Below are positions 23,148 through 40,507 of a stretch of 64,000 nt of DNA, in pieces. The position numbers and the translations under genes were made by a program. Source of the stretch: Aquipluma nitroreducens (GTDB lineage: Bacteria; Bacteroidota; Bacteroidia; Bacteroidales; Prolixibacteraceae); assembly GCF_009689585.1 (NCBI RefSeq), contig NZ_AP018694.1, forward strand, positions 248,001 through 312,000, read 5' to 3'. Numbering within the stretch: position 1 is the first letter of the stretch; every line of letters begins with the position of its first letter. The notes beneath the pieces are model-generated. The model saw only the letters and a list, made by a program, of their open reading frames with translations, searched no databases and was not told the DNA's origin.

Positions 23148-23155
23148 AAAAACAC

Positions 23156-26035: not shown

Positions 26036-26047
26036 GATATTTTGGTT

Positions 26048-26757: not shown

Positions 26758-26758
26758 A

Positions 26759-27477: not shown

Positions 27478-27486
27478 TCGGATTAA

Positions 27487-27657: not shown

Positions 27658-27661
27658 AGTT

Positions 27662-27737
27662 TGGAAAAAACGGTGAAATTGACCACCTAATTTCAGTTTA
27701 AATTGGCACAGGGTGGTCAGTTTGACCGAATATTACA
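27662..27737. mobile_element. 76-bp IS21-family remnant with both ends joined
   Basis: The first about 42 bp match the left end of the IS21 element at 43637 (two mismatches). The last 33 bp (GGCACAGGGTGGTCAGTTTG onward) match its right end at 49871-49903 exactly. The junction falls in the shared TTAAAT sequence, so nearly 2.5 kb including istAB has been lost. No target duplication is visible on its flanks (CCATAGTT against CTTTGACT). Confidence 0.85.
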
Positions 27738-28233: not shown

Positions 28234-29652
28234 ATGGACGAAAAATTGAACAACCAGGATGTTCTGCTTGTCAGAGAAAAAGACAGTGATAAATTGAAAG
28301 TCGTTTCGGGTATCGAAAAAGAAGGTCAGCCAAAGTCCGTTGAACCTCTAAAGGAAAATGAGACGCAATTTCTGAGAATTGACAAATCCGGCAATGCATT
28401 GGATAACTTCATGTCGAATTTTCAGAGGCAATACAAAGACCCAACACATTTCCAGTTCTTTAAAGTACCTATTGAGAAGGTCAGTGAAATTGCCGTAAAA
28501 CTCCAGGAGGCTTTTAAGAAGCCTGACGAACCTGCCAATAAAGCAACAATTGACACACACAAGGTTGAATCCCCATCGCAGGATAAAAAGCAATCTACTC
28601 ACACCATTGACGAAAACCGTATCGATTGGTCTCAATTAGAACGTCTTGGTGTTACCCGCGATACCCTTGAACGAACCAAAAGTCTGGAAGCAATGATGAA
28701 CTGGCAAAAATCACCCGTTCTGATTCCTATTGCAGCCAAATTTGATGACACCACACTTCGAACAGATGCTCGGTTATCCTTTAGGGAAATGCCAGATGGG
28801 AAACTGGCTTTGGCTATTCATGCAATTCGCAAAGAACCTGAATTAGACAGGCCATATTTTGGTGTCAGGTTCACCGATGAAGACAAGAAAAATCTGCAAA
28901 CAACTGGAAATCTTGGGCGGATTGTCAATGCAGAATTCAAGCAAGGAGAAAAAACGCCAGTATTTATTTCGGTAGATAGATTAACCAACGAACTGGTAGC
29001 TGTTAGAACCGATAAACTTAGAATTCCTGAATCCATCAAAGGAGTTACTCTCGAAGATACACAGAAGCAACAGCTGGCTGAAGGCAAATCGGTTTATCTG
29101 GAAGGAATGACCTCCAAAGGCGGGAAAGAGTTCTCTGCAAACGTACAGGTTAATGCTGATAAGAAAGGAATTGAATTCAGGTTTGATCAACAACCAAATC
29201 AATCTCAGCAAAATGATCAGCGACAATTTCAGCAACCAAACGGAGAAGTACGTATTCCCAAAACATTGCTTGGAGTTGAATTATCAGAGATACAGCAAAG
29301 TAAACTTCAGGAAGGGCAAACTATATATGTAAGTGGGATGAAAGATAGCCAGGGCCAGGATTTTAATGCTTACGTTAAGGTTGATAACGAAAACTCAAAA
29401 CTGGCCTTCTTCAAATGGAACCCGGATAAGTCTAATGCTAAAGAAGTCACTCCCGATAATGCAAGTAAAACTCAGGTAGATGTCAATTCAGAAGGTAAAA
29501 CAAACGAAGCCACCAAAAAACTTGATGAGCCATTGAAAAAGGATCAAACACAACCGACCGAAAAACAGGCTGAAAAACAAGACAAGAAAATGACCGAGGA
29601 AAACAAACAAGAATCTGAAAAGCCTGAGAAGGCCAAAGGAAGGAAATTGTAG
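28234..29652 (+). CDS. DUF4099/DUF3945-domain protein of conjugative elements
   Basis: 472 residues. An N-terminal part (about 1-110) precedes a DUF4099-like region (IDWSQLERLGVTRDTLERT, about 129-150). Two DUF3945-like repeats follow, built around RIPESIKGVTLEDTQKQQL and RIPKTLLGVELSEIQQSKL, each with a LxEGxxxYxxGM strand pattern. The tail is extremely Lys/Glu-rich (about 390-472). The family is common in Bacteroidota conjugative transposons and has no established function. It is the only rightward gene in the accessory block and is convergent with the methylase-like gene. Confidence 0.85.
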   Translation: MDEKLNNQDVLLVREKDSDKLKVVSGIEKEGQPKSVEPLKENETQFLRIDKSGNALDNFMSNFQRQYKDPTHFQFFKVPIEKVSEIAVKLQEAFKKPDEPANKATIDTHKVESPSQDKKQSTHTIDENRIDWSQLERLGVTRDTLERTKSLEAMMNWQKSPVLIPIAAKFDDTTLRTDARLSFREMPDGKLALAIHAIRKEPELDRPYFGVRFTDEDKKNLQTTGNLGRIVNAEFKQGEKTPVFISVDRLTNELVAVRTDKLRIPESIKGVTLEDTQKQQLAEGKSVYLEGMTSKGGKEFSANVQVNADKKGIEFRFDQQPNQSQQNDQRQFQQPNGEVRIPKTLLGVELSEIQQSKLQEGQTIYVSGMKDSQGQDFNAYVKVDNENSKLAFFKWNPDKSNAKEVTPDNASKTQVDVNSEGKTNEATKKLDEPLKKDQTQPTEKQAEKQDKKMTEENKQESEKPEKAKGRKL

Positions 29653-29699
29653 TTTAAAAGTTATTTCTATTTCCGAAGTAATAAAAGCCCTGAAAGGCC

Positions 29700-30449
29700 T
29701 TAAAAATCAAACAACAGTTGCTGAACCGGCTGCATATTCATTGGGAGTAATTCAACAGAATCGATAACCGGCAACTCTTGTTGTTTGATCTTCGGTTGTT
29801 CCTGGTTATGTTTGGGAAGTTGCAGCATCATATAACTATGGTCTTCGGTAATCGGAACGATGTATGGCGCCCCGGTTATCGGATGTGGATTCACCTGCCA
29901 GCCGGAGAAAAACTGGTTGGTTAGAGTATCCATGCAGGCAACTTCTCCAAACATTCCGTTCAGGCACATATTAACCAAACACATCATGGCGCAGGTCCGG
30001 TCGATGTCGGCTCCGTAAAACCGTGCATTTCGGTTGATCCTGGCTGCTGCCATTAACGTTCTGCCTGAACCGCAGCATGGATCGGCAATCCGTTCACCAT
30101 CCCGGATTTCTCCGATGGTAATTAATGCCATCATTTCACAGATATGTTCAGGGGTGAAAAACTGCCCTGCTTTGCCGTAACTGATGTGTTCCATAAAGAA
30201 GTCACCAAAGACATCCTTCAACCCTTCCCCATCGTTTTCCATGTCAATTATTACTGCTGCTAATGCAGAGGAGAAAACCTGAAGTTCATCTTTATTGTAA
30301 CTTTTGATGATTTCAAAATAGCGGTCTTCCATCTGTCCCAACGAAAGGGCGCAAACAGTCATTTCCAAGAAATCGGAGAATACGTGGCTAACCCCATGCT
30401 TGGGTGCCAACTGATCCATGTAATTCACAAAACTAAGTAACTTTTCCAT
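29700..30449 (-). CDS. N6-DNA-methylase-fold protein lacking the catalytic NPPY/F motif
   Basis: 249 residues resembling the HsdM/N-6 methylase core. The SAM-binding motif DPCCGSGRTL (about 138-147) and the acidic partner GADID are clear, and GKAGQFFTPEHICEMM is the usual approach to the fold. The catalytic motif IV (N/D-P-P-Y/F) that should follow is absent; the region reads NQFFSGWQVNPHPITGAPY. It may bind SAM or DNA without methylating, or use NPH. The C-terminus VQQLLFDF resembles a beta-clamp-binding motif. Its start is preceded by the conserved hairpin leader (copy A). Confidence 0.75.
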   Translation of the reverse strand: MEKLLSFVNYMDQLAPKHGVSHVFSDFLEMTVCALSLGQMEDRYFEIIKSYNKDELQVFSSALAAVIIDMENDGEGLKDVFGDFFMEHISYGKAGQFFTPEHICEMMALITIGEIRDGERIADPCCGSGRTLMAAARINRNARFYGADIDRTCAMMCLVNMCLNGMFGEVACMDTLTNQFFSGWQVNPHPITGAPYIVPITEDHSYMMLQLPKHNQEQPKIKQQELPVIDSVELLPMNMQPVQQLLFDF

Positions 30450-30496
30450 CTTGATTTACCGCTGCCCAACGGATTTATTAAGGCATCTGGCACGCC
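30450..30496 (-). promoter_or_regulatory. Two-hairpin translational leader, copy A
   Basis: Read on the minus strand: stem P1 (GGC...GCC, 30482-30496), a 9-nt A-rich linker, stem P2 (30459-30472; CCGT/GCGG with loop TGGGCA and one G-U pair), then 9 nt to the ATG. Same architecture as six other leaders in this window. Confidence 0.75.
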
Positions 30497-30640
30497 GGTT
30501 AATTTTGAGCCGAAACCATTGAGCAGGCCGGATTCTTGTCAAGGGCTACTTCGACACTTTACGCTGTTCAGTGACCCATCGAAGTGAGCTTGTATACCCT
30601 TGACTTTTCCGGAATGCGGAAATACCTTTGCGCCAAATTG
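30450..30640. repeat. Divergent-promoter repeat, copy A
   Basis: Arm 1 (30528-30545, CCGGATTCTTGTCAAGGG) and arm 2 (30597-30612, CCCTTGACTTTTCCGG) are imperfect inverted repeats. On the plus strand, arm 2 supplies TTGAC (30600-30604) followed after 20 bp by TACCTTTG (30623-30630), a full Bacteroidota promoter. On the minus strand, arm 1 supplies TTGACAAG directed at the methylase-like gene through leader A. Confidence 0.75.
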
Positions 30641-30728
30641 AGTAAGAGTAAAAAACTTAAAAACAGGAATATTGAACCGAGAAAAGCATTGATGAACAAA
30701 TGAAAAAGGGTTTTTCACCCTCTTCTAT
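30637..30728 (+). ncRNA. Candidate short transcript from repeat A
   Basis: Predicted from the plus-strand promoter ending at 30630 and the hairpin at 30708-30722. It begins with sequence like AATTGAGTAAGAG, related to the starts of the other copies, and holds no open frame. Existence is inferred. Confidence 0.3.
30708..30722 (-). terminator. Terminator of the 30728-31135 gene (bidirectional)
   Basis: AGGGT/ACCCT stem with TTTTC loop. On the minus strand it is followed by TTTTTC, 6 bp after the stop of the hypothetical gene. Confidence 0.65.
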
Positions 30729-31135
30729 TATGATGCTATTGATACCGATAAATGTTCACCTTTTGAAGCATCAACTGATTTGAAGTAAGTCTCTTTGATT
30801 TGATTAGTTAACTGATCAGATTCAAGATCAACTGATTCGATTACCCGAAACCAGGTCCAAAACAAATCAAAGAATTCATTATCAGATTCGATTTCTGATT
30901 CTTCCAAAGAATCAATGTAATCACTATCATACCACAGAACAATTTCCTGATAATCACCAAAATCATGCTGAAATGTTTTAACCGAATAATAAGCTATTGT
31001 TTTAAATTTCTGCGGAATGGGAAAACTGGAATGAAAGTAATCCAGTAGCACACGCATTTCAATTTTCAGTTTCTTGTAAAATGCGGAATCGCCCATTTGG
31101 GCAAACCCATTTGAACCTAAGACTAAATAATCCAT
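30728..31135 (-). CDS. Hypothetical acidic protein
   Basis: 135 residues, strongly acidic in the middle (SDYIDSLEESEIESDNEFFD), no signal or membrane segment and no recognised domain. It starts 9 nt after the P2 hairpin of leader F, which supports both the start and the gene being real. Last gene of a leftward set running from DUF6573 through SymE. Confidence 0.65.
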   Translation of the reverse strand: MDYLVLGSNGFAQMGDSAFYKKLKIEMRVLLDYFHSSFPIPQKFKTIAYYSVKTFQHDFGDYQEIVLWYDSDYIDSLEESEIESDNEFFDLFWTWFRVIESVDLESDQLTNQIKETYFKSVDASKGEHLSVSIAS

Positions 31136-31183
31136 GATAAATTGTCCATGCCTTTGGAACTTATATGGGTATCAAGCACACCC
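31136..31183 (-). promoter_or_regulatory. Two-hairpin translational leader, copy F
   Basis: P1 is GGGT...ACCC (31167-31183), P2 is TCCA/TGGA with loop AAGGCA (31145-31158), and 9 nt separate P2 from the ATG. Unlike copies A-E it lies between genes with no promoter arms, so the leader does not depend on the repeat. Confidence 0.75.
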
Positions 31184-31196
31184 GATTTAAAAATGA

Positions 31197-31415
31197 TTAA
31201 AAGTTTGCTGAAATCCATTGTTGAAAAGCCTGTTCAGTAGTCAAATCTCCGCTGACCCATATCTGATGGATTTCAGAAATAATTTCCAAGGCATGTTCTT
31301 CCTGTGCAAAAAATCCTTCTTCCTGATCAAATACTTCAACAGTACCAAGTGAAGTGTCAATGACACCACAGCTATATTTTCCACTGATCCAACTTTCGTT
31401 TAATGTAATATCCAT
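31197..31415 (-). CDS. Small hypothetical acidic protein
   Basis: 72 residues from the ATG at 31415 (MDITLNESWISGKYSCGVID); an upstream ATG would overlap the previous gene. Sequence such as FFAQEEHALEIISEIHQIW suggests a compact alpha/beta protein. No family recognised. Follows the 65-residue gene by 20 bp on the same strand. Confidence 0.55.
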   Translation of the reverse strand: MDITLNESWISGKYSCGVIDTSLGTVEVFDQEEGFFAQEEHALEIISEIHQIWVSGDLTTEQAFQQWISANF

Positions 31416-31435
31416 GGTAGTTTGATTTAAGTTGA

Positions 31436-31633
31436 TTAATCGTAATGTAAAAATTGATGATGTTCCAATTTCCAATGAGCTGGAAGCATACTCACAATTT
31501 CGTTGTAGCTTTCCTCCAGTTCAAACAACCACGGACGTTCCAGGATCGCCCCTTTTTCATCCAGATAAGGGCCTAGTGTCCATAGCATTCCGTTTAATAG
31601 CCGGTCTGTTGTTTGTATATCTAATTCAAGCAT
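31436..31633 (-). CDS. Small hypothetical protein
   Basis: 65 residues (MLELDIQTTDRLLNGMLWTL, ending EHHQFLHYD). Gene reality is supported by leader G, whose P2 hairpin ends 10 nt before this ATG. No domain recognised. Confidence 0.6.
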   Translation of the reverse strand: MLELDIQTTDRLLNGMLWTLGPYLDEKGAILERPWLFELEESYNEIVSMLPAHWKLEHHQFLHYD

Positions 31634-31705
31634 GGGTAAATTGCTGATGCCTTTCAGACTTATTTGGGTATCCTTCGATAAACTCAGGACTGGTCAAGCT
31701 CACCC
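31634..31705 (-). promoter_or_regulatory. Two-hairpin translational leader, copy G
   Basis: P2 is CTGA/TCAG with loop AAGGCA (31644-31657), 10 nt from the ATG. P1 is GGGT/ACCC with an enlarged loop (31666-31705) that contains TTCGATAAACTCAG, half of the palindrome seen whole in repeat D. P2 has a different stem sequence from the other copies but the same shape. Confidence 0.7.
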
Positions 31706-31715
31706 GGTTATCCGT

Positions 31716-31895
31716 TTATTCTACTGAAGTAATTACAAGTTTGCCATTGGAAACAGCAACCCGGATGAGTTTGGAAGGATGGAAACCAGCTTCCTGAAGC
31801 CAGTTTCCGGTGAGAGTAAGTTTGGGAACTACTTTAGGTGTACGGGCGTATTTCCCTTGCCTGTAATTCGGCTGAAGTTTGATGATCCGCGTCAT
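31716..31895 (-). CDS. SymE-like toxin-family protein
   Basis: 59 residues, translated by hand: MTRIIKLQPNYRQGKYARTP, then PKLTLTGNWLQEAGF and VAVSNGKLVITSVE. The K-L-x-L-x-G-x-WL-x-x-AGF and gkLvI segments are the hallmark of the SymE AbrB-fold family, which in E. coli is a type I addiction toxin. It starts 2 bp after the stop of the DUF6573 gene, so it is co-transcribed. No antisense SymR-type RNA can be shown, and in this context it may be a DNA-binding regulator rather than a toxin. Confidence 0.75.
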   Translation of the reverse strand: MTRIIKLQPNYRQGKYARTPKVVPKLTLTGNWLQEAGFHPSKLIRVAVSNGKLVITSVE

Positions 31896-31897
31896 GA

Positions 31898-32338
31898 TTA
31901 ATCCTCCGATGGTTTCATGATAAAAATGGCCGGTGACGGATCGTCAAAGTCCTGTGCCTGTATAACCGATTTAAGCGTGACCAGCCGGATGGTGCGGTTG
32001 TGGTCAAGGTCCGGATCTACTTCCTCATTAGGTTCCCAATCTCCTTTATCAGCAAGAACCACATTCAGTTTATACATCAGCGTTGACGAATCGCATGATC
32101 TGGCAGCGAACATGAACATGAAAAGTACATCCCACAGCCGTCCATCCAAATCCTGAACTCCCCCAAAATCTTTCGGTAATTCAACGTATTTATCCCAAAC
32201 CGCACGGGTCAGGTAAACCGGATATTTAATACCCGCTTCTTTTGAAATCTTTTGGTCAACTCGGACTAAAAATCCATCTTCAACAGCCTGTCTGGTGCTG
32301 TAAGTGTCGATTACTTCCCAATCTGAAAAATCACTCAT
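31898..32338 (-). CDS. DUF6573-family protein
   Basis: 146 residues. The pattern EVIDTYSTRQAVEDGFLVRV, AGIKYPVYLTRAVWDKYVE, GRLWDVLFMFMFAAR and the closing LVTLKSVIQ...IFIMKPSED matches a family found on plasmids and conjugative elements (named DUF6573 in current databases, as I recall it). Function unknown. It begins 9 nt after leader B and heads the SymE-containing set. Confidence 0.7.
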   Translation of the reverse strand: MSDFSDWEVIDTYSTRQAVEDGFLVRVDQKISKEAGIKYPVYLTRAVWDKYVELPKDFGGVQDLDGRLWDVLFMFMFAARSCDSSTLMYKLNVVLADKGDWEPNEEVDPDLDHNRTIRLVTLKSVIQAQDFDDPSPAIFIMKPSED

Positions 32339-32385
32339 AGTTTTGTACCCTTGCCTTAGGGATTTTTATTGGCATCTGGCTCGCC
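32339..32385 (-). promoter_or_regulatory. Two-hairpin translational leader, copy B
   Basis: P1 GGC...GCC (32371-32385), A-rich 9-nt linker, P2 CCCT/AGGG with loop AAGGCA (32348-32361), 9 nt to the ATG of the DUF6573 gene. Confidence 0.75.
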
Positions 32386-32595
32386 TGTTAATTTGAACCC
32401 TATCCGATTGAGCAGTCCGGATTCTTGTCAATGGGCGAATGTCAGTTTTAACGAAGACCGGAGTCGGAAGACCGAAGTCAGAAGTTAAAAGTGACCGAGT
32501 GCGAAGCAAGCTTTTCATTTCCCTTCCGGAAGGAGAAAAGCTCCCTTGACTTTTCCGGAATGCGCAAATAACTTTGGGATCTAATTGATAGAAGA
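32339..32595. repeat. Divergent-promoter repeat, copy B
   Basis: Arm 1 at 32417-32435, arm 2 at 32543-32558. The plus-strand promoter is TTGAC (32546-32550), 20 bp, TAACTTTG (32569-32576). The loop between the arms contains a CTTCCGGAAG palindrome shared with copy C and a run of three GAAGTC/GGAGTC-like short repeats. Apparent minus-strand frames through it are only the repeat translated. Confidence 0.75.
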
Positions 32596-32695
32596 AAGAC
32601 TCTCTCTGTAGTCGGTCAAACCTGTATAAAAAGAAGAAAAAATGGGAGTCAAATATATTTAAGGAACAAAAAAAAATGGCCGAAGCCATTTTCTT
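32583..32695 (+). ncRNA. Candidate short transcript from repeat B
   Basis: Predicted between the plus-strand promoter and the hairpin at 32673-32692. It starts with TAATTGATAGAAG and contains no open frame. Inferred only. Confidence 0.3.
32673..32692 (-). terminator. radC terminator (bidirectional)
   Basis: AAAATGGC/GCCATTTT stem around a 4-nt loop, with T-runs on both strands. It lies directly after the RadC-like gene. Confidence 0.75.
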
Positions 32696-33167
32696 ACATC
32701 AATCCTTCGTCGGCAAAGGAAAAGTAAGATTCTGAAGTAATAATTAAGTGATCCAATACCGCGATGTCGAGAACTTTGCCAGCTTCACGGATTTTCTTGG
32801 TCAAATCTTTGTCAGCTTCGCTAGGTGTTAGATTCCCTGACGGATGATTATGTGAAATAATTATGGAATTTGAGCAGGCCTTTAAAGCCGTCTGCATAAT
32901 CATTCGGACATCGGCAATTGTGCCGGATAAACCTCCAGCTGAAATCTGGCAGTAGCCCAAAACTTTGTTATTTCGGTTTAGGCAAAGGATGTAGAAATAT
33001 TCACGGTAATCTAGGCTCGGAAAAACATCTTTTAAACAAGCGTAAGCATCACCCGAAGTAACCACCTTCGGCAATTCTGATGCCTTGTACTTTGGTTTGT
33101 AACTGATTTCGATTTCACACAATGTTGAATTAAACAGTTCACGTGGAGTAAATAAATTTGTTTGCAT
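32694..33167 (-). CDS. RadC-like JAB/MPN-domain protein
   Basis: 157 residues forming only the JAB/MPN domain of the RadC family. The metal-binding signature is intact (HNHPSGNLTPSEAD, about 107-120) together with the closing DHLIITSESYFSFADEGL. Chromosomal RadC has an extra N-terminal helix-hairpin-helix; this short form is the kind carried by plasmids and integrative elements. The old DNA-repair name is not a proven function. It starts 9 nt after leader C. Confidence 0.9.
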   Translation of the reverse strand: MQTNLFTPRELFNSTLCEIEISYKPKYKASELPKVVTSGDAYACLKDVFPSLDYREYFYILCLNRNNKVLGYCQISAGGLSGTIADVRMIMQTALKACSNSIIISHNHPSGNLTPSEADKDLTKKIREAGKVLDIAVLDHLIITSESYFSFADEGLM

Positions 33168-33214
33168 TTTAAGTCACCGCTGCCCGGCGGATTTTTTAAG
33201 GCATCTGGCTCGCC
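33168..33214 (-). promoter_or_regulatory. Two-hairpin translational leader, copy C
   Basis: P1 GGC...GCC (33200-33214), linker TTAAAAAAT, P2 CCGC/GCGG with loop CGGGCA (33177-33190), 9 nt to the radC ATG. Confidence 0.75.
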
Positions 33215-33400
33215 AATTAATTTTGAGCCAACCAGCACATAGAGCAGTCCGGATTCTTGTCAATGGGCGAATGTCAGTTTTGAAGTGAAGCGAGAAAGTG
33301 ACCGAATGCGGAGCAAGCTTTTCATTTCCCTTCCGGAAGGAGAAAAGCTCCCTTGACTTTTCCGGAATGCGGAAATAAATTTGAGAAAAATTGAGTGAGA
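33168..33400. repeat. Divergent-promoter repeat, copy C
   Basis: Arm 1 at 33248-33266, arm 2 at 33350-33365. The plus-strand promoter is TTGAC (33353-33357), 20 bp, TAAATTTG (33376-33383). Its inner half is nearly identical to copy B over more than 60 bp, so these two copies diverged last. Confidence 0.75.
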
Positions 33401-33520
33401 GAAGTACCTTTGAAAGTTTGCTTTTGATGGATAAAATTTAAAAGAATCGAAATAGGTGGAAATCTTGAGATTACGTTTATTTGAAAAATAAAAACCCCAG
33501 TCAGGACCAGGGTTTTCAAA
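33390..33520 (+). ncRNA. Candidate short transcript from repeat C
   Basis: Predicted from the promoter to the hairpin at 33491-33516. It starts AAATTGAGTGAGAG, the clearest form of the shared 5' segment. No gene lies between the promoter and the terminator on either strand, which makes this the best copy to test for an RNA. Confidence 0.35.
33491..33516 (+). terminator. Hairpin ending the region after repeat C
   Basis: AAAACCC and GGGTTTT pair around a 12-nt loop; T-runs lie on both sides. Confidence 0.5.
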
Positions 33521-33644
33521 TTCCACCTCCATAACAAAAAAAACTGAGTTAAATTCTTTTACTGTGATAAAAAAATCAATCTAAATTTACGATAATATTT
33601 GACAAGTACAGGAAATATTTTGTTGATTTATTGTAACTGTTAAA

Positions 33645-34190
33645 ACCACCTCCTTTGGTGGTGGTCATGGATAAATTGGCTTTGCCTGAAAATTATTAAT
33701 TTCGTGACATGAGTAAATTTAAGAAATTAAGTCACGTCATTTATCGATGTACATACCATATCGTTTGGACGCCGAAATATCGATACCGTATTCTAGAAGG
33801 ACTAGTCTAAGAATTGTTGTCAAAAGATATTCAAATGTTATTGGAGTGGAAGTCCTGTGAATTGATAGAAATGAATGTTCAAATTGATCACATTCACTTG
33901 ATCGTGAGTATTCCACCCAAAATATCGATATCAGAACTTATGGGGATTTTGAAAGGGAAAACAGCGATCAAAATCTTCAAAAGTTATCCTCAACTGAAAA
34001 AGAAACCCTATTGGGGCAATCATTTTTGGGCAAGAGGATATTGTGTTGACACCATTGGCCTTGACGAAGATAAAATCAAAAAATACGTCAAATATCAAGA
34101 AGAGCAAGAACGACTAGAAGAGCAACAAAGGTTCGAGTTCAGCCCCTTATAGGGGCAATTTTAAGTCCACCTTCTTAGAGGGTGGATTCT
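33645..34190 (+). mobile_element. IS200/IS605-family element with end hairpins
   Basis: Contains a tnpA-type gene only. The left hairpin is ACCACC/GGTGGT with a 6-nt loop (33645-33662), the right one TCCACC/GGTGGA (34166-34186), the structured ends expected of this family. The exact cleavage sites cannot be set from one copy. There is no target duplication, as expected. Confidence 0.75.
33709..34152 (+). pseudogene. tnpA: IS200/IS605 TnpA (Y1 HUH transposase), nonsense mutation
   Basis: Reads as a full 147-codon TnpA from the ATG at 33709 (MSKFKKLSHVIYRCTYHIVW) except for TAA at 33808-33810 (codon 34, GLV-stop-ELLSKD). The HUH signature DHIHLIV and the catalytic Tyr (KKYVKYQEEQE) are intact downstream. 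A restart inside the second part would lack the first strand of the fold, so the element is probably inactive by itself. A 6-bp hairpin (GCCCCT/AGGGGC, 34142-34156) overlaps the stop. Confidence 0.85.
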
Positions 34191-34196
34191 TTAATA

Positions 34197-35117
34197 TCAG
34201 CCAAATAACACGTTTTCTAATAGAGAGAACATCTCCTTGTGTTTCCTGGGATTATCGTGTTTTAATCTTTCAATATTCTGCAATTTCCAATGAACGGCTG
34301 GTAATTCTCTGGCATTTTTGACGGATAATTTTTCCCAATCCGGGTTGCCATCCTTGAAACTCATTAAAAATTGTCGGTCGTCGTTTGTTAGTTTTGATTG
34401 AACTTGTCCAACTAACTGTATTCGGGTTCGCTCATAATCTTTATAGCTAAAAGGGATATTTGCCATGCCAGAAAATTGAGTTTCAAATGCTTGTTGCTGA
34501 TCAATAAACATCGGACTGATTACCTCACTGATTGGTCGCATGTGAGAAATAAGCGCAACAAGGAAACCATCTTTTATATCATCAGTGAAACCTTCATTAT
34601 CCAAAAGAAGCATGACATCAAACAAATCGCGGGGATGCTGCCGGTCTAATGCCGCACAAATCTTGCCTCCATAAAGTTCAGCCATTGAAACAACATGAAT
34701 GGCAGCAAATCTTCCAAACGAAGATTCAACAGAATCATGAACCCGCATAAGTCTTGTTGGATGAATGCACCCCCGAGTTGTGGTATTTACCTCGATCTTA
34801 ATTTGAGCGCCTGGTAACTGACAATTAATTTTAACATCCTGTCCTTCGCGCGATGCTGCCGTTACGCTGATTCTGGGAATGGAACGTTCCAAGTCTAATT
34901 TAATACGTGCCAATCCATCCGAAATATTTTTCAATGCCGTTTCCCGGTCATCAATTGGAAGATAAGTTAAATCGATATCTACTGACAGTCTAGGTATATT
35001 TCGAACAAACAGGTTAATGGCCGTCCCTCCTTTAAGTGCAAATATTTCTTCTTTTGCAACATACGGGAGCGTTTGCAACAATAAATCAACTTGTGCTTTA
35101 TATTTTGGATCGATCAT
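34197..35117 (-). CDS. AbiEii/AbiGii-type nucleotidyltransferase toxin
   Basis: 306 residues of the type IV toxin-antitoxin / abortive-infection nucleotidyltransferase family. The N-terminal catalytic signature is FALKGGTAINLFVRNIPRLS then VDIDLTYL (about 22-50), and the second conserved block is MAELYGGKICAALDRQHPRDLFDVMLLL (about 145-172), with D/R residues for nucleotide transfer. It overlaps the antitoxin gene by 4 bp (ATGA), so the two are translated together. In characterised AbiE systems the toxin transfers nucleotides to tRNA and blocks growth after phage infection; that role is carried over here by family. Confidence 0.88.
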   Translation of the reverse strand: MIDPKYKAQVDLLLQTLPYVAKEEIFALKGGTAINLFVRNIPRLSVDIDLTYLPIDDRETALKNISDGLARIKLDLERSIPRISVTAASREGQDVKINCQLPGAQIKIEVNTTTRGCIHPTRLMRVHDSVESSFGRFAAIHVVSMAELYGGKICAALDRQHPRDLFDVMLLLDNEGFTDDIKDGFLVALISHMRPISEVISPMFIDQQQAFETQFSGMANIPFSYKDYERTRIQLVGQVQSKLTNDDRQFLMSFKDGNPDWEKLSVKNARELPAVHWKLQNIERLKHDNPRKHKEMFSLLENVLFG

Positions 35118-35881
35118 AATTGAGCCAATTCTTTGGATATTGTAATATGAAATTCAGAATCATACGAACCATTACTGATAATATTGCGGTCACCCTCTCC
35201 AAGATTGACCGATGATAAATCAAGAAATTGGAACCATTGATGATTTGCTTTTTTCGCCATGTATAAAAATAAGCGTTTAACTTTCACCGAACTGCATTCA
35301 TCCAAAAACTTCTGCAACAAACCAGGCCTTAGATTTACCAAGCCTGACATGATTTGATAAACCTCTATTATATCCAGCTTTTCCGGAGTGAGATAAAGAC
35401 ATTCAAAAATTGCCCTTTCTGCTGAAGAAATGATCAAAGGGAATTGTGTTTCCTGAAACTCTTCCATCCCAATCCCTTCCAGAAGAAATGATGTCTTGAC
35501 ATGGTTTATTGTTTCACTCCATGAATATTGTTTAAACCATGCTGGCAATCTCGAATTCAATTGAGAGAATAAAAAGACAGTCTCAGCACCAGTGCGTATA
35601 TAATGAGAAAATCCCAACATCGACAAAGCAGTTGGGCCACCAATGTAAACAGGTAGATTCGCTTGTTTTTGAAGGGAATAAAGTGCACCTTGCCAACCGA
35701 CCGTTTCATTCGGGCGTTTGAATGCACCAACTCCAATCGATTCAAGCCAACTGCTTTTTAAATACCGATGTTGCAAATCACGGGAGAATCCATTTGCATC
35801 AAGCCATGATGCCAGCATTATTGTTCCCGGAATATGCAAATCCAGAAGTTTCTTTAATTTTATTTCATTATTAGTACTCAC
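35114..35881 (-). CDS. AbiEi-type antitoxin / transcriptional regulator
   Basis: 255 residues, upstream partner of the AbiEii-type toxin. The sequence follows the AbiEi/COG5340-like pattern: an N-terminal winged-helix region (ASWLDANGFSRDLQHRYLKSSWLESIGVGAF) and the central conserved block YIGGPTALSMLGFSHYI, then a C-terminal domain with SSAERAIFECLYLTPE. AbiEi proteins repress their own promoter and counter the toxin. No conserved hairpin leader precedes it. Confidence 0.82.
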   Translation of the reverse strand: MSTNNEIKLKKLLDLHIPGTIMLASWLDANGFSRDLQHRYLKSSWLESIGVGAFKRPNETVGWQGALYSLQKQANLPVYIGGPTALSMLGFSHYIRTGAETVFLFSQLNSRLPAWFKQYSWSETINHVKTSFLLEGIGMEEFQETQFPLIISSAERAIFECLYLTPEKLDIIEVYQIMSGLVNLRPGLLQKFLDECSSVKVKRLFLYMAKKANHQWFQFLDLSSVNLGEGDRNIISNGSYDSEFHITISKELAQL

Positions 35882-35931
35882 AGTACAAATATCGTAATAT
35901 ATTTAAAGAAACAAGCGATGTCCTGAATATT

Positions 35932-36168
35932 TTAACCTATTGCATTGTTGTTGACCTGTTCCACAATCCGAATAATCCGATTTTGATCTTCATCTTCAAA
36001 AAGACTGAATATACCGTGGTCATTAATGTCAGCAAATGGTGGTTGGGCAAGCCGAGATCGTTCGAGTATTCCGTTATTCTTAAAATGAGTGACTATGTTC
36101 TGGATATTGACCTGGTGAAACTTTGCTGCAGAGATTGGCAAATCGGACGAGAAAAATGAATCAAACAT
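35932..36168 (-). CDS. Hypothetical protein or C-terminal gene fragment
   Basis: 78 residues (FADINDHGIFSLFEDEDQNRIIRIVEQVNNNAIG at the end). No recognised domain; the sequence looks like the end of a longer protein. No leader, and no clear promoter upstream. Could be a remnant. Confidence 0.3.
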   Translation of the reverse strand: MFDSFFSSDLPISAAKFHQVNIQNIVTHFKNNGILERSRLAQPPFADINDHGIFSLFEDEDQNRIIRIVEQVNNNAIG

Positions 36169-36398
36169 TCTTTGTGGGGGTCAGTTCTGGGCGGAGGCAA
36201 GGTGTGTTCTGAATGAATGGTTTTTCGGTCCAATCATTCAGAACTTACACGTGTGGCGATGAAGATTGTTTGGTGAACGAGTGAATTAGCTCGGAGTGCA
36301 GCTATCCCTTATCAGGATAGCGGGAACGGACGTGCGTTTAAAATGAGTGAGCCGAACGTTCTGCAATTGTTTGGGCTTTGTTCTGATTGTGCTCTTCG
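36169..36398. other. Structured intergenic region
   Basis: No gene. Two strong hairpins: TTCTGAATGA/TCATTCAGAA, a perfect 10-bp stem at 36210-36243 or close by, and GCTATCC/GGATAGC at about 36302-36323. It follows the stop of the HU gene. May be a terminator region, a small RNA or a remnant of a mobile element. Confidence 0.45.
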
Positions 36399-36683
36399 TT
36401 ATTTTACTTTTTCTTTAACCTGAGCAACAAATTCTTTGGCTGGCTTAAATGCAGGAATGTTATGAGCAGGAACAATAATGGTGGTATTTTTAGAAATAAT
36501 ACGTGCAGTTTTTTCTGCTCTTTTTTTTACGATAAAACTTCCGAAACCTCGAAGATATACGTTATTTCCCCCGGTTAAAGAATCTTTAACTGTTTCCATA
36601 AATGCTTCAACAGCTTTTTCTACGGTCACCTTTTCAATACCAGTGTTTTGGGTTATTTCCTTTACGATATCTGCTTTTGTCAT
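36399..36683 (-). CDS. HU/IHF-family DNA-binding protein
   Basis: 94 residues, full length for HU. MTKADIVKEITQNTGIEKVT, then the beta-arm region LRGFGSFIVKKRAEKTARI and the proline arm tip (TTIIVPAHNIPAFKPAKEF). It bends DNA and could assist recombination, oriT processing or packing of element DNA. Single gene between two intergenic regions. Confidence 0.93.
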   Translation of the reverse strand: MTKADIVKEITQNTGIEKVTVEKAVEAFMETVKDSLTGGNNVYLRGFGSFIVKKRAEKTARIISKNTTIIVPAHNIPAFKPAKEFVAQVKEKVK

Positions 36684-36824
36684 TGCTTAAAATTTTTAAT
36701 TATCAATAATTTATATTTCTAAAATAATTGGTGAGCAAATATAAAATTATTAATCAGACAGTTGCCTTTTTTTAGGGTACATTTTACCTTGAAATGATGA
36801 CTCTTTCAAATTGCGACACAAAAA

Positions 36825-36841
36825 AAAGCCTTTTCGGCTTT
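36825..36841 (-). terminator. Terminator of the SSB-tail gene
   Basis: AAAGCC/GGCTTT stem; on the minus strand it is followed by a run of nine T's, 15 bp after the stop at 36856. Confidence 0.8.
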
Positions 36842-36855
36842 CTTTTGGTTTTCAC

Positions 36856-37164
36856 CTAAAAAGGAAGGTCATCTTCAGCCGGTTGAGCCTGCTTTTTAGA
36901 ACTCTTTTTGTCAGCTTTCTTTTGTTTCACTGGTTCGTCCTGAACTGGATTGTCAGTGTAAACCTTGGTCTGAAAATAACAAGTATGAGTCCTGCCGAAT
37001 TTATCAGCTTCTTTTAGTTTTGCCACCTCAAATGAGAGGTACTTAATTCCGTTCTTTTCGAACATTGCGGCATCGAGGCCCTCTGCTGGCAATACAACTC
37101 TAATAATGTCAAGGTTTTCTAACTTAGTTCCTTTTCCGATGTAATGTTTTTCAAAAGTTGTCAT
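36856..37164 (-). CDS. Small protein with an SSB-like acidic C-terminal tip
   Basis: 102 residues. The body (GKGTKLENLDIIRVVLPAEG, then IKYLSFEVAKLKEADKFGRTHTCYF) has the strand pattern of a small beta-barrel. A Lys-rich linker (VKQKKADKKSSKKQAQ) leads to EDDLPF, closely like the DDDIPF tip by which single-stranded-DNA-binding protein recruits repair and replication enzymes. I do not find a canonical SSB fold signature, so it may be a divergent SSB or a mimic of its tail. Plasmid leading regions typically carry ssb genes. Confidence 0.65.
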   Translation of the reverse strand: MTTFEKHYIGKGTKLENLDIIRVVLPAEGLDAAMFEKNGIKYLSFEVAKLKEADKFGRTHTCYFQTKVYTDNPVQDEPVKQKKADKKSSKKQAQPAEDDLPF

Positions 37165-37727
37165 AATGTTGAATTTTGAGTTATAAAAAAAATTTCTGCA
37201 TGATGACTATTCTGATGAAGGGTGGCAATGAAGCAACTGGAATACCGCGGTTCGACAGGCTCACCAAACGGTGAACCAAGAACAAGGATATGCCGGGAAA
37301 ATTCATTGACGGGTTTCCTTCAATCTAAGAATAAATCTTTGTAGATAATTTTGGACTAACGGCTCAATATTTTGTAAACCGTAGAAAATCCACACTGGTA
37401 AAGGTTACCCAGTTAAACCCTGAGATTATCTTAGAGTCGTTACGAGCCAGTGCTTTGATTGTGTTTGAATAGGCATTGAAATAGTACCAATTGAGGCTGT
37501 GTTAACGAAAGGAACAAATCGGAAACCATATTTTTTCAAGCAAATGGTATTGACAAACCTCAGGAAACAGACCAAAACTAAAAATGCAAAAATGAAGAAA
37601 GCAGGTTGGCAGGTAGATGACCTCAATAAGCTGAACCCAAAAGCCGAAAGGCTAATTTGGGAGCAAAAGGGTACCGGGTACTGGGAGTTAGCGAACAAAA
37701 AAATGGAGGCGAAGCCTCCACTCTTGG
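37165..37727. other. Intergenic, no convincing gene
   Basis: 563 bp. Contains a REP-like TTCGACAGGCTCA with a small TCACC/GGTGA hairpin at about 37253-37278. Opposed frames of 79 (plus) and 90 (minus) codons overlap each other and have no family resemblance, so I do not call them. Confidence 0.5.
37704..37720 (-). terminator. Terminator of the 37728-38108 gene
   Basis: TGGAGGC/GCCTCCA stem with a 3-nt loop; the minus strand continues into TTTTTTTG. Confidence 0.8.
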
Positions 37728-38108
37728 CTAAAGGTTAATCAGTTCTTCAACATCGTGGATTTTAACATCCAGTGTCCGTTTCATTTCATCGATCACTGAG
37801 CTGATCACTGCTGAGTTGGAAGTTTTGAACTCATTGCCGTTTGAATCGCGCAAACTGATCACAGAACTGAGCGAATCAGCTCCGATCTGAAAGGTTTGCA
37901 ACTTGCGACGTGAGTCGTTCAAGGTTTTCCAACGGTCGATCAATAATGACAAATCTTCCACCCGTTGAATCCGTTCTTCAAGCGTCAGCTTACGAGCTGC
38001 TTCTTCCACTTTTTCTTCTTTGACAACGGTCATCGTTGGTGCTACAGGACTCACTTCAGCAACTTCAGTACCATTAACTGTTTTTTCGGCAACATTTGAT
38101 TTACCCAT
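37728..38108 (-). CDS. Hypothetical protein of conjugative elements
   Basis: 126 residues from the ATG at 38108 (MGKSNVAEKTVNGTEVAEVS), chosen because leader D ends 9 nt upstream; the frame runs further upstream through the leader. A low-complexity acidic N-terminus precedes a helical segment (LEERIQRVEDLSLLIDRWKT) and a small beta/helix part (SVISLRDSNGNEFKTSNSAV). Similar proteins of unknown function occur in Bacteroidota conjugative transposons. Confidence 0.75.
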   Translation of the reverse strand: MGKSNVAEKTVNGTEVAEVSPVAPTMTVVKEEKVEEAARKLTLEERIQRVEDLSLLIDRWKTLNDSRRKLQTFQIGADSLSSVISLRDSNGNEFKTSNSAVISSVIDEMKRTLDVKIHDVEELINL

Positions 38109-38156
38109 ATTTTTTTGCCCATGCCCTTGGGTCTTATTTTGGCTTCTGGCACTGCC
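38109..38156 (-). promoter_or_regulatory. Two-hairpin translational leader, copy D
   Basis: P1 GGC...GCC (38141-38156), linker AAAATAAGA, P2 CCCA/TGGG with loop AGGGCA (38118-38131), 9 nt to the ATG. Confidence 0.75.
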
Positions 38157-38380
38157 GGTTAAAATTAAATTACGGGTTGAAATCATTGAGCCGGACGGAT
38201 TCTTGTCAATGGGCGAATGTCAGTTTCGTAAGAATGGAGAAAGTGACCGAGTGCGAAGCATGGCTTCGACAGGCTCAGCCACCAAACACAACGATCAATA
38301 CGACGGTGGCTGAGTTTATCGAAGCCACCCTTGACTTTTCCGGCTGGCGATCAATACCTTTACCCAGAATTTGAGTGTAA
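38109..38380. repeat. Divergent-promoter repeat, copy D, containing a REP-like palindrome
   Basis: Arm 1 near 38196-38213, arm 2 at 38328-38343. The plus-strand promoter is TTGAC (38331-38335), 21 bp, TACCTTTA (38355-38362). The loop holds a long imperfect palindrome, TTCGACAGGCTCAGCCACC against GGTGGCTGAGTTTATCGAA, at about 38262-38325, absent from copies A-C. Confidence 0.75.
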
Positions 38381-38460
38381 CAAGAATTCTCTGTCTACTC
38401 CGGAAAGTCTGATTATTTTAAAAAACGACCAAAAAAAGGGGCGAAAAAGCCCCTTGAGTA
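38369..38460 (+). ncRNA. Candidate short transcript from repeat D
   Basis: Predicted from the plus-strand promoter to the hairpin at 38437-38454; starts AATTTGAGTGTAAC. Inferred only. Confidence 0.3.
38437..38454 (-). terminator. Terminator of the zinc-ribbon/J-domain operon (bidirectional)
   Basis: AGGGGC/GCCCCT stem with a 6-nt loop, followed by a T-run on the minus strand. Confidence 0.8.
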
Positions 38461-38461
38461 T

Positions 38462-38677
38462 TTAGTACGCACATGGACCAATTCCATTATAAGCATCTTC
38501 GTCGGCTGCCGATGATCTGAACTGGCTATATGGAACTACGCCACATTTCAGGCAATACGCCTTTCTGTCGGATGGCCAGTAATAGATTTGAGTTCCTTTT
38601 TTGATGCTACAGCCGCATTTGGAGCAGACTGAAGTAAACTTTGCAGTTAACATTCTTGGATCGTTTTTGTAAGTCAT
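38462..38677 (-). CDS. Small zinc-ribbon protein
   Basis: 71 residues. CSKCGC and CLKCG (about 18-23 and 42-46) give the four cysteines of a zinc ribbon, with GTQIYYWPSDRKAY between them. It resembles small proteins carried by conjugative elements. It follows the J-domain gene by 11 bp, so it is co-transcribed from leader/promoter copy E. Confidence 0.75.
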   Translation of the reverse strand: MTYKNDPRMLTAKFTSVCSKCGCSIKKGTQIYYWPSDRKAYCLKCGVVPYSQFRSSAADEDAYNGIGPCAY

Positions 38678-38688
38678 TGTGTGTAATT

Positions 38689-39174
38689 TTAGTGAATGAA
38701 ATTATTTTGATTAGCATATTGAGAGTCCACTTTTTCGGAACCCCAGACTTCACGCATTTCGTCCATCGACATCAGCTTGCCTGACTTTTTAAAGTATTCC
38801 CCTTTATGCCAGTACCAGGCCGCTTTGGGATGTGAGAATTTGTATCCTTCACCTTTCAATGTTTCCCTTACTGCAAAGGTATTTCCTGTAATCCAAATCC
38901 ATGAACCAATCAGTTCAATAACAATACCTTTCAGAAACATGATACGATCCAGCCGATCGCGCATTTCTTCTGAAACCTGCTGTTCATACTCTTTCCTGGC
39001 TTCCGAAAAATCAGCATTGCCATTGATCAGCATTTTGGATAGCCGGTCGTACTGGTCATTAATTACCTGCATGATGGCCGTGTCGCCACCTTTGTCTGGA
39101 TGATACAGAAAAGCAAGGCGACGGTATTCCCTGCGCAATTCATCCAACGTTTTGATATTCTCAAAAAACTTCAT
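38689..39174 (-). CDS. J-domain (DnaJ-like) protein
   Basis: 161 residues with an N-terminal J-domain: helix II EYRRLAFLYHPDKGG with the invariant His-Pro-Asp at 25-27, then helix III (INDQYDRLSKML). No Gly/Phe or zinc domain follows, so it is a class III co-chaperone that would direct a DnaK to a specific client. The C-terminal part (KGIVIELIGSWIWITGNTFA, then YKFSHPKAAWYWHKGEYFKK) is conserved in mobile-element relatives and unknown in function. It starts 9 nt after leader E. Confidence 0.85.
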   Translation of the reverse strand: MKFFENIKTLDELRREYRRLAFLYHPDKGGDTAIMQVINDQYDRLSKMLINGNADFSEARKEYEQQVSEEMRDRLDRIMFLKGIVIELIGSWIWITGNTFAVRETLKGEGYKFSHPKAAWYWHKGEYFKKSGKLMSMDEMREVWGSEKVDSQYANQNNFIH

Positions 39175-39222
39175 GTGATTTCACCGCCTGCCCGGCGGAT
39201 TTATTTTGGCTTCTGGCTCGCC
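39175..39222 (-). promoter_or_regulatory. Two-hairpin translational leader, copy E
   Basis: P1 GGC...GCC (39208-39222), linker AAAATAAAT, P2 CCGCC/GGCGG with a GGGCA loop (39184-39198, one extra pair), 9 nt to the ATG. Confidence 0.75.
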
Positions 39223-39415
39223 TGTTAATTTTGAGCCAAAACACCATTGAGCAGACCGGATTCTTGTCAAAGGCCGAATGTCAGTTTTTAGGTACGAAAA
39301 ACTGAACTAGCGCCTTCGGCGTTGTTTCGGTTCAATAGGCTCAGCGCACATAATTCCGAAACAAGCCTTGACTTTTCCGGAATGCGTAAATACCTTTGCA
39401 CACAATTATAGGAGA
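39175..39415. repeat. Divergent-promoter repeat, copy E
   Basis: Arm 1 at 39256-39273 and arm 2 at 39366-39380; the inner pair has changed to GGC/GCC in both arms, keeping the pairing. The plus-strand promoter is TTGAC (39368-39372), 20 bp, TACCTTTG (39391-39398). The loop includes a GCGCCTTCGGCG hairpin and a REP-like half site. Confidence 0.75.
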
Positions 39416-39482
39416 GAGAACCCCTTCTGACTATTCTTAGGAGGAAAGAGCATTAAAAAAGAGGCATTTCGCCTCTTGAAGT
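39405..39482 (+). ncRNA. Candidate short transcript from repeat E
   Basis: Predicted from the plus-strand promoter to the hairpin at 39459-39477; begins CAATTATAGGAGAGAG. Inferred only. Confidence 0.3.
39459..39477 (-). terminator. Terminator of the 39497-39667 gene (bidirectional)
   Basis: AAGAGGC/GCCTCTT stem with a 5-nt loop; the minus strand runs into TTTTTT. Confidence 0.8.
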
Positions 39483-39496
39483 TGAAGCTGTTAAGG

Positions 39497-39667
39497 TTAT
39501 TTCTCGTAACAACTTTTATATGATTCATACTCGAACTCAAGCAATTCTTTGTCAAGCTCATCGGCAGCACCCTCGAAATAAACCGTTTCCAGATATTCAA
39601 CGAAGGCTTCCCAAACTGTGTTAGTTTCCTGATTCTTTGTGGCTGATTTTAAAGTGTAAGTTTTCAT
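39497..39667 (-). CDS. Small acidic hypothetical protein
   Basis: 56 residues (MKTYTLKSATKNQETNTVWE, then a Glu-rich helix ending SYKSCYEK). It is followed by a good terminator, which supports it being expressed. No family recognised and no conserved leader upstream. Confidence 0.6.
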   Translation of the reverse strand: MKTYTLKSATKNQETNTVWEAFVEYLETVYFEGAADELDKELLEFEYESYKSCYEK

Positions 39668-40507
39668 ACTATAGTTTTTAAAAAATTCATACCCTTCTTC
39701 TGTTGAATTTTTCGGTAAACAAAAAGCAACTGGAAGATTTTTTATGACAGTATGGAAGAAAAATACCGGGAAATTTTTTGTTTAGACGCTAGTCCTTAGC
39801 CGCTAAATTCGACGGTTTCTTTGTGTGGATTCTAATAAAAACAAGTATGATGGAGGCTCTTACACAATCAGCCGCGAAGAAACTAGGAACCTCGCAGTTT
39901 GGAAATCAACTGATCTTTTAGAACTGGTTTTTCGTGGTGATCTGAACCCCAAAATGTTTTGCGTTTTGGAATCCATTAGAGTTCATTGAAAAGAATTGCT
40001 TCTTCAGGTAAGTGAAGTAAGTTTATCCTTAAAATTCGAACATTACTATGGTTTTGGATAGGCAATCTCATATGTAACTTTCATCCTTCTTGGTGATTTC
40101 TATGACATATGAAACTGCATTTTCGGGATGGAGTGTTGCTTTCCAACCCCAAAGAAACGGTTCATTAGCGTTTCATCCAAGAACAATCCATGTAACACAC
40201 TCATTATAAGATTCATCTAAACACATCGCATTAAAGATTTGTCAAATAATTATTGTGATTTTTTTAATTAAAATATGAGATAAAAAGTTGTCGAAACCTG
40301 AAAATCGTATTTCTAACGAGAAATTACAAATGTTCTGTAACAAATAATATTTTGATACATTTAACGAATTAAATCGATGCGTAAAATTGATGATAATTTT
40401 ATGAATATATCTTGTGCTTAATTATCTGATATGGGCTTCAAGTCTGATTGATACATTCATTAAATAATTATATTGATAGCAACTACGATTCTGAAAAAAG
40501 GAAAAGT
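39668..40507. other. Intergenic, no gene seen
   Basis: 840 bp, AT-rich towards the kinase gene. One short open stretch at about 39851 (MEALTQSAAKKLGTSQFG, then stop) may be a remnant. No promoter could be assigned for the kinase; AAGGAAAAG before the ATG at 40508 is a plausible weak ribosome site. Confidence 0.5.

Follow-up and report, generated by a model that had tools for sequence, protein, structure and literature searches.

The window, by which we mean the whole 64-kb stretch of DNA analysed here (248-312 kb of the 5.71-Mb Aquipluma nitroreducens genome), carries seven leftward genes that share a small two-hairpin RNA leader. Read directly from the sequence, all seven leaders lie on the minus strand ahead of ATG codons at 30449, 31135, 31633, 32338, 33167, 38108 and 39174. 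Their layout is the same in 7/7: a hairpin P1, an A-rich linker, a hairpin P2 with the loop (N)RGGCA, then 9 or 10 nucleotides (nt) to the ATG. In window coordinates, with protein sizes in amino acids (aa) and bit scores from our covariance model R1, they are:

39172..39227, minus strand: leader of the J-domain-like gene 38689-39174; P2 CCGCC/GGCGG, loop GGGCA; 69.8 bits
38106..38160, minus strand: leader of the 126-aa gene 37728-38108; P2 CCCA/TGGG; 66.8 bits
33165..33219, minus strand: leader of radC 32694-33167; P2 CCGC/GCGG; 66.9 bits
32336..32390, minus strand: leader of the DUF6573 gene 31898-32338; P2 CCCT/AGGG; 70.4 bits
31631..31709, minus strand: leader of the 65-aa gene 31436-31633, operon-internal; P1 GGGT/ACCC, P2 CTGA/TCAG; 42.6 bits
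31133..31187, minus strand: leader of the 135-aa gene 30728-31135, operon-internal; P1 GGGT/ACCC, P2 TCCA/TGGA; 55.6 bits
30447..30501, minus strand: leader of the N6 methylase-like gene 29700-30449; P2 CCGT/GCGG; 68.4 bits

R1 was built from 16 copies, six of the seven window leaders among them. It recovers all seven at 70.4 to 42.6 bits (E ≤ 1.9e-13); the copy before 31633 lay outside the training set, yet scores 42.6 bits, and the sole other match in the window reaches 13.6 bits (E 0.047). The initial annotation had described seven such leaders before unrelated leftward genes, and direct reading and the covariance model find every one of them. Its P2 stems are as listed, except that the copy before 39174 has a stem of 5 base pairs (bp), which leaves 5 nt (GGGCA) for the constant loop. 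The P1 loop of the 65-aa gene leader holds an extra hairpin-like stretch. The 126-aa gene has a further in-frame ATG upstream, at 38186; judging by the other leader copies, we take the ATG that follows the leader as its start.

Fold, covariation and placement of the leader

With a length of about 40 nt, the leader is a compact cis-acting RNA. P1 has 3-4 bp and the loop GNGCCAGAW, the linker is A-rich and mostly 7 nt long, and P2 has 4 bp and, past a 1-nt bulge, one further pair, with the loop NRGGCA. Our main set started from 196 matches in 78 sources, which were chosen from those at hand with dense clusters favoured, so that the counts are not a census. These gave 179 distinct copies, 169 of which could be parsed when at least three P2 pairs next to the loop were required; the other ten had pairing in another register (three), the loop GGTA (one), a P2 mismatch (two) or no P2 (four). 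The 169 parsed copies show 26 distinct P2 stem sequences, and all four pairs are kept in 168 of them. The bulged pair, absent from the search model and not demanded by the parse, was G-C in 89, A-T in 73, G-T in 4 and A-A in 3. When 55 diverged copies from other genomes were added, 213 of the 234 could be parsed (21 dropped), with 121 G-C, 85 A-T, 4 G-T and 3 A-A at the bulged pair. Long P1 loops contain an extra-hairpin stem of at least 4 bp in 37/37 distinct loops, a count made without a control, from which we claim nothing. The P1 loop also has a likeness to the 530 loop of 16S rRNA, which is probably chance.

The initial annotation expected covariation beyond phylogeny. We assessed this with a home-made phylogeny-aware null, similar to R-scape without being R-scape, in which parsimony changes on a tree were randomly re-placed in 60 simulations (177 distinct rows and 630 column pairs; P1 pairs and three of the four P2 pairs demanded, the bulged pair not). 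Several pairs do exceed it: no simulated pair attains the level of the bulged pair, the inner P1 pair or three of the P2 pairs. A recount at fixed distances without any demand for pairing comprised 124 distinct rows; 7/234 copies could not be anchored and 84/227 with other P1 spacing were left out. There the inner P1 pair was C-G in 100, T-A in 16, T-G in 2, G-C in 1 and something else in 5, the bulged pair G-C in 79, A-T in 40, G-T in 2 and something else in 3, and each P2 pair was unpaired in only 1 or 2 rows, with up to five pair types. A diverse alignment of 33 rows (31 picked with P1 pairing demanded; 12 pairs, including the loop-loop helix discussed below) had 92.7% of its cells paired, versus 77.1 after shuffling, and a covariation score of 0.501 versus 0.195 shuffled, with slid controls at most 0.072; its count of pair types was not above shuffles (18 versus 16.8).

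The same picture comes from a pairing-blind scan of IMG/VR in which the stem letters were left open. It returned 50 matches, 41 of them distinct, some on contigs that had supplied copies earlier. All four P2 pairs are present in 40/41 instances, versus a mean of 16.4 and a maximum of 23 in 1000 partner shuffles; the 41st would pair given a loop one base longer, and the bulged pair is Watson-Crick in 39/41. Among non-Watson-Crick cells of P1, P2, the bulged pair and two loop-loop pairs in the fixed-distance set, G-T occurs 40 times and A-C 5 times in the mRNA sense, a tally of cells and not of independent events. This asymmetry implies that the strand that folds is the mRNA strand and not its complement.

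The two loops are complementary to each other: G-N-G-C-C of the P1 loop matches G-G-C-A of the P2 loop across GCC/GGC, and the leader of the 135-aa gene has the P1 loop GTGCTTGAT and the P2 loop AAGGCA. At one kissing position the 213 parsed rows have (P1-P2) G-C in 208, A-T in 3 and G-T in 2, and the fixed-distance set G-C in 117, A-T in 4, G-T in 2 and A-C in 1. Where the sixth place of the P1 loop is T, the second place of the P2 loop is A in 18/18 copies, versus 34/195 for other letters. These sequence patterns make a kissing helix between P1 and P2 likely.

In a start-codon-blind scan that demanded a paired P2 (138 instances), the first ATG lies 6-11 nt past the last P2 base in 126 and 7-9 nt past it in 122; nine more have an ATG at 3 nt plus another at 8 nt, and the remaining three have a TTG at 7 nt, an ATA at 7 nt and no start codon there. 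P2 spans about -9 to -25 relative to the start. In the A-rich spacer G makes up 1-8% at -6 to -1, and Shine-Dalgarno-like words occur in 11/234 copies. Among the 169 parsed copies 158 open a frame of at least 60 codons or one running beyond the 700 nt read, and five open frames of <30. Copies also precede operon-internal genes that have no inverted repeat (see below). The proteins downstream fall into 36 clusters. The leaders sit at a tight ATG distance before translation starts of unrelated genes, as had been proposed. Taken with the covariation, this placement bears out the earlier view of a selected RNA structure as opposed to coding conservation. What sequence comparison shows is the pairing of P2, the bulged pair and the inner pair of P1, together with a constant distance to the ATG and the occurrence before many unrelated genes.

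PMC6847099 deals with a member of the same phylum, Flavobacterium johnsoniae, in which Shine-Dalgarno sequences are missing from mRNAs, the stretch from -20 to +20 is unusually unstructured and A at -12/-13 aids initiation. Since starts there are normally unstructured, a conserved hairpin near the ATG is a sign either of control or of a special mode of starting.

Distribution of the family and the genes it precedes

The leaders belong to a large, apparently new RNA family. Its own genome has 20 R1 matches, all strong where the DNA was fetched (E ≤ 1.5e-12). Many strong matches were found among 61 genomes of relatives, 47 of which have something at E ≤ 1, a good part of it weak. In an even sample of the order, 30/393 genomes match at E ≤ 1e-4, representing 24/207 genera and 19 families, a few of them weak; some of the 30 have weak matches only, poor by eye (for example loci L242 to L245). 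It should be noted that the wide genome searches use stricter filters, by which weak matches are lost. The search for further copies suggested by the initial annotation thus finds them in many genomes. Across the phylum a second model, R2, matched 3/395 genomes, namely the own genome and two weak matches from one genus, which lack P1 by eye. Within the genome samples covered, the family does not extend beyond a single order.

The radC gene illustrates how far the association reaches. All nine loci with a RadC of at least 74% identity (L141-L149), which come from metagenome-assembled genomes of Prolixibacteraceae, one being assigned only to Bacteroidota, carry the leader. A convincing one was found in 0/71 more distant radC loci of genomes (best E 0.034) and in 1/41 radC loci of IMG/VR, and the radC leader had no blastn match in PLSDB plasmids or INPHARED phages. 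Rfam 15 gave 0 matches above gathering threshold in the window, no match at the leaders in 26000-40500 at E ≤ 10 and none at those of 20 further loci at E ≤ 1; the family was not found in Rfam 15 or in full-text literature searches. A separate observation concerns a genome of another family, where a Flavo-1 match (49.6 bits, above gathering) lies near leader copies, at 2944-3029 on the plus strand of locus L225.

The proteins downstream of 219 leaders form 17 multi-member clusters and 19 singletons, some singletons following weak leader matches. Named families among them are RadC, N6 methylase, DUF6573, ArdC, ArdA and a YspA-like SLOG protein; the DnaJ match of a leader gene is just under the cut-off. 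Two diverged copies with an A-U variant of the kissing pair (L240 and L258, both in genome G144) precede proteins that look secreted or like lipoproteins, unlike the anti-restriction sets elsewhere.

A second element in the own genome, at 4.73-4.74 Mb, carries leader-bearing homologues of the DUF6573, J-domain-like, 65-aa, 135-aa and radC genes, in order. Its radC is followed by genes for a Toprim/DnaG-zinc protein, a MobC/NikA-like protein and a MobA/VirD2-type relaxase. A relaxase search in 17 genomes found a match in 7 and a close one (at least 76% identity) in 4: the own genome (G000), G017 (C11, C52), G011 (C101) and G003 (C42). In these the close relaxases lie downstream of, and on the same strand as, leader clusters; those of the own genome are at 4740637, at 466319 (broken in two) and at 226236, about 50 kb from the window leaders. 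Weaker relaxase homologues do not all share this layout and are not relied on. Relaxase genes are typically in the lagging region of a transferred element, as stated in sections of PMC11541004; since the leaders lie upstream of the relaxases and co-oriented with them, leader genes would be in the leading region. The leader region is accordingly presumed to be the leading side of the origin of transfer (oriT), and we infer the identity of the transferred strand. An oriT-like block with nested inverted repeats (CGGCAAGAT..ATCTTGCCG) is conserved before a mobilisation gene in six elements (L064, L284, L285, L286, L287 and L288), with the main inverted repeat on the relaxase side of the block's conserved end.

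The most widely shared neighbour without a leader of the family before its ATG in the window is:

36856..37164, minus strand: gene for a 102-aa protein with the C-terminus EDDLPF

It was found in 16/37 compared neighbourhoods, some of which come from one genome, and we take EDDLPF to be a tip like that of single-stranded-DNA-binding protein. Two genes at 34197-35881 resemble a nucleotidyltransferase toxin-antitoxin pair of the AbiE type. Polysaccharide-utilisation genes (SusC/D-like, rhamnosidase, RhaT) at 9634-26035 separate the leader genes from the nearest of the close relaxase homologues and are possibly cargo of the element or an insertion.

Inverted repeats upstream of the leaders

Five of the window leaders follow an inverted repeat that has a Bacteroidota-like promoter facing away from the gene (30528-39398); the remaining two, as the initial annotation had it, have no inverted repeat before them. 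The parts are:

39256..39270, minus strand: J-domain-like gene, proximal arm TTGACAAGAATCCGG
39366..39380, minus strand: J-domain-like gene, distal arm CCGGAAAAGTCAAGG
39368..39398, plus strand: J-domain-like gene, outward promoter-like TTGAC..TACCTTTG, 20 nt between TTG and TA; proposed, from its sequence, as the non-template arm of a single-strand promoter
38195..38209, minus strand: 126-aa gene, proximal arm TTGACAAGAATCCGT
38329..38343, minus strand: 126-aa gene, distal arm
38355-38362, plus strand: 126-aa gene, outward box TACCTTTA (one base off)
33249..33263, minus strand: radC, proximal arm
33351..33365, minus strand: radC, distal arm; hairpin folded
33376-33383, plus strand: radC, outward box TAAATTTG
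32417..32431, minus strand: DUF6573 gene, proximal arm
32544..32558, minus strand: DUF6573 gene, distal arm
32569-32576, plus strand: DUF6573 gene, outward box TAACTTTG
30528..30542, minus strand: methylase gene, proximal arm
30598..30612, minus strand: methylase gene, distal arm; hairpin folded
30623-30630, plus strand: methylase gene, outward box TACCTTTG

In the window the distal arm lies 160-240 nt from the ATG. In the main set, a proximal arm like TTGACAAGAATCCG (at most 3 mismatches) occurs within 75 nt in 84/169 parsed copies, 83 of which also have the distal arm, and 85/169 lack the proximal arm. TTGAC..TAnnTTTG is the promoter consensus of the Bacteroidota type. On the strand opposite to the gene it is present exactly in 45 of the 83 repeat-bearing copies, with 20 nt between TTG and TA in 38, 21 in 6 and 19 in 1; the other 38 have no exact match. 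The shorter box TAnnTT(T/C)G was counted from 230 to 60 nt upstream, leaving out 9/234 copies whose upstream sequence was too short or masked. Repeat-bearing copies have it on the opposite strand in 63/82, on the gene strand in 4/82 and in 7.3 after shuffling. The corresponding numbers are 30/48, 4 and 5.8 for other copies with a long intergenic space, and 30/95, 7 and 11.5 for those with a short one. An ATG frame of at least 80 codons that starts within 300 nt in the outward direction is found in only 9/78 copies, which makes an ordinary divergent promoter unlikely for most of them.

For four of the five window repeats the plus strand has a more stable fold than shuffled sequence gives (z -3.0 to -3.5; one of the stretches taken was without the outer arm). 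The -7 box is within the folded stretch in only two of the repeats, unpaired in one and within a separate small hairpin in the other. In its arrangement the inverted repeat looks like what is expected of a single-stranded-DNA promoter of the Frpo kind. The loop of one repeat contains a long palindrome (GGTGGCTGAG..CTCAGCCACC, window 38260-38330), and long P1 loops have a sequence like CTGAGTTTATCGAAGG that seems to be related to it.

Interpretation and related systems

A structure that covaries and stands at a set distance from start codons, as it does here, is what characterises cis-regulatory translational leader RNAs, and we infer that the leader acts in translation initiation. The reading we favour, and hold to be somewhat more probable than all others together, is a translational operator of an establishment regulon, whose genes would, where the repeat is present, also be transcribed first from the entering single strand. 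The folded leader would probably be bound by a trans-acting factor of the element or the host, and would set or shut off translation gene by gene, for ArdA, ArdC, RadC, the methylase and others. Repeat-bearing genes would probably be transcribed first from the entering single strand by the Frpo-like promoter: if the plus strand is the one entering the recipient, one arm would present the promoter boxes once folded, and the other would serve as template for the gene. Reckoned from the box spacing, such a transcript would start within a few bases of CAAAATTAAC, just before P1, and the RNA element would then be the 5' end of the message. Translational control by this structure had been suggested in the initial annotation; its further idea, that a small RNA reads the GGCA loop, fares less well, as the loop is complementary to the P1 loop and therefore probably not free.

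The closest known systems are Frpo/ssi of F and ColIb-P9. The portions of PMC9849209 and PMC11541004 devoted to them describe repeats upstream of several leading-region genes, a folded single strand with -35/-10 boxes that is active only before the second strand is made, and anti-restriction and methylase genes as typical of the region. The first and last of these are found here as well, and the second is the likeness we propose. The differences are that the boxes here are of the Bacteroidota type, with a promoter role read from sequence, and that the promoter would feed a structured RNA leader, a feature those portions do not describe for Frpo/ssi. The string 'Bacteroid' is absent from the main text of the Nature paper on single-stranded-DNA promoters. 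EGeRS1 of pLS20-family plasmids is likewise a repeated structured sequence before establishment operons, including ardC; as described in part of PMC8708921 it comes from Bacillus, measures 400-600 bp and has the transferred strand as non-template. Our leader, at about 40 nt, is no member of it, and also differs in preceding single genes, operon-internal ones too, with covariation support.

Other RNAs were considered. The radC RNA motif RF01754 is also a candidate cis-regulatory RNA and named after radC, and is listed for Proteobacteria in the relevant part of Weinberg 2010 (PMC2864571). Its model has 149 positions and gave no match in 26000-40500 at E ≤ 10. It was found in 0/1 own genome and in 0/41 genomes including the own; no control genome was above the cut-off either, so that this does not prove absence. 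ANTAR target RNAs have two small hairpins with a short linker, and the P2 loop here resembles their hexaloop in having A1 mostly (160/169 parsed copies) and G4 (fixed by the parse). The P1 loop rules this identity out, being 9 nt in 148/213 parsed copies and a hexaloop in 0/213; further differences are the probable pairing between the two loops and a start codon in place of a terminator as the target. A search for an ANTAR protein gave no match in the genome, nor in the control genomes. Ribosomal-protein leaders and the translational operators of RNA phages and of T4 gene 32 likewise place a hairpin or pseudoknot beside the start codon; they control one gene or operon, whereas here the structure is repeated before many unrelated genes.

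The strongest alternative, which we regard as possible and distinctly less probable than the operator, is that the leader recruits the ribosome: P2, preformed at the position of the Shine-Dalgarno duplex, and the A-rich linker would dock the 30S subunit or bS1, and incoming genes would be translated strongly without a regulator. Tight spacing to the ATG and an A-rich, G-poor spacer agree with this, and so does one element per gene even inside operons; no regulator linked to the leaders was found in 37 compared neighbourhoods, and matches in 19 families of the order, a few of them weak, suggest a partner in the host. The same idea has to face F. johnsoniae, where structure near the start codon goes with lower initiation (in the results of PMC6847099 that concern this), a family limited to one order in the samples scanned although ribosomes are presumably alike across the phylum, and loop letters conserved beyond what pairing needs. 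A small riboswitch, a 40-nt fold that binds a metabolite or ion and gates access of the ribosome, is improbable. Its size, its loop-loop architecture, which is like that of small riboswitches, and its place adjoining the ATG would suit, but the genes served have no evident common pathway, include anti-restriction genes of mobile elements, and come with several copies per element.

We give slightly less credence still to a structure that acts in DNA, for example as a site on the single strand for a protein or primase, with the proximity to the ATG incidental. Single-strand-promoter-like repeats do adjoin leaders, and plasmids have known single-strand promoters and initiation sites, as covered in sections of PMC11541004; the excess of G-T over A-C cells in the mRNA sense, the tight ATG spacing and the two window copies without an inverted repeat all speak against it. 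Least probable of all is a conserved inserted repeat spread by duplication and without function of its own. Copies within one element have long upstream sequence in common, as this would predict, but stem letters vary while pairing is kept, and in other families diverged copies have retained the element although the sequence upstream of it differs.

Several results weigh against the operator reading or parts of it. The folding energy of single leaders is no better than that of shuffled sequence (z +0.75 to -1.41), and only 3/7 window leaders have P1 plus P2, in the register expected, as their minimum-energy fold, a fourth having P1 and a shifted P2; support for the structure is comparative, not energetic. 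The first P2 pair (E 9.3) and the other two P1 pairs (E 0.27 and 19.9) remain within the phylogeny-aware null, as do the kissing pairs (E 6.9 and 16.6), whose changes are few events on the tree; the A-C kissing row is a weak match of 25.9 bits, dropped from the 213-row parse. In the inverted repeat the inner stem shows conservation instead of covariation and so is no proof of a hairpin by itself. The oriT-like block has TTCCTG/C on the relaxase-sense strand, which resembles the MOBP nick core; if this is the nick, the polarity of transfer is opposite. No regulator was found, and the model of the 102-aa protein was unusable (mean predicted local distance difference test, pLDDT, 48.9). Finally, a portable initiation enhancer fits most of the same data.

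An extension of the operator reading, unlikely as we judge it and still the boldest lead, is that the leader checks the origin of its message. GG(C/T)TC occurs within 40 nt upstream in 83/83 repeat-bearing copies, and the second place of the P1 loop is A, giving the complement GAGCC, in 78/83; in the 130 repeat-less copies that place is T in 78 and A in 37, and GG(C/T)TC is found in 13. Many repeat-bearing copies are close relatives, and the association may therefore reflect common descent. If transcription from the entering strand starts right after GGCTC, as the start reckoned above would, the kissing form would be the sole fold open to that message. Once the double strand is established, read-through transcripts made from it would include GGCUC, and its pairing with GAGCC would abolish the kissing helix. 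Were this true, the promoter and the RNA switch would between them limit translation to the minutes that follow DNA entry.

While fold and place follow from comparison, translational control is the best explanation the sequences allow for an RNA element that belongs to single genes. In a phylum whose mRNAs lack Shine-Dalgarno sequences, such a per-gene element gives a direct way to ask how structure steers initiation. The leader marks, by sequence alone, Bacteroidales mobile-element genes that may form one entry programme, and the many small proteins of unknown function behind it become candidates for anti-defence. The single-strand-promoter-like repeats suggest a Bacteroidota counterpart of the early expression from the entering strand known from enterobacterial plasmids, in which the leaders may set the translation strength of genes as DNA enters a new cell.

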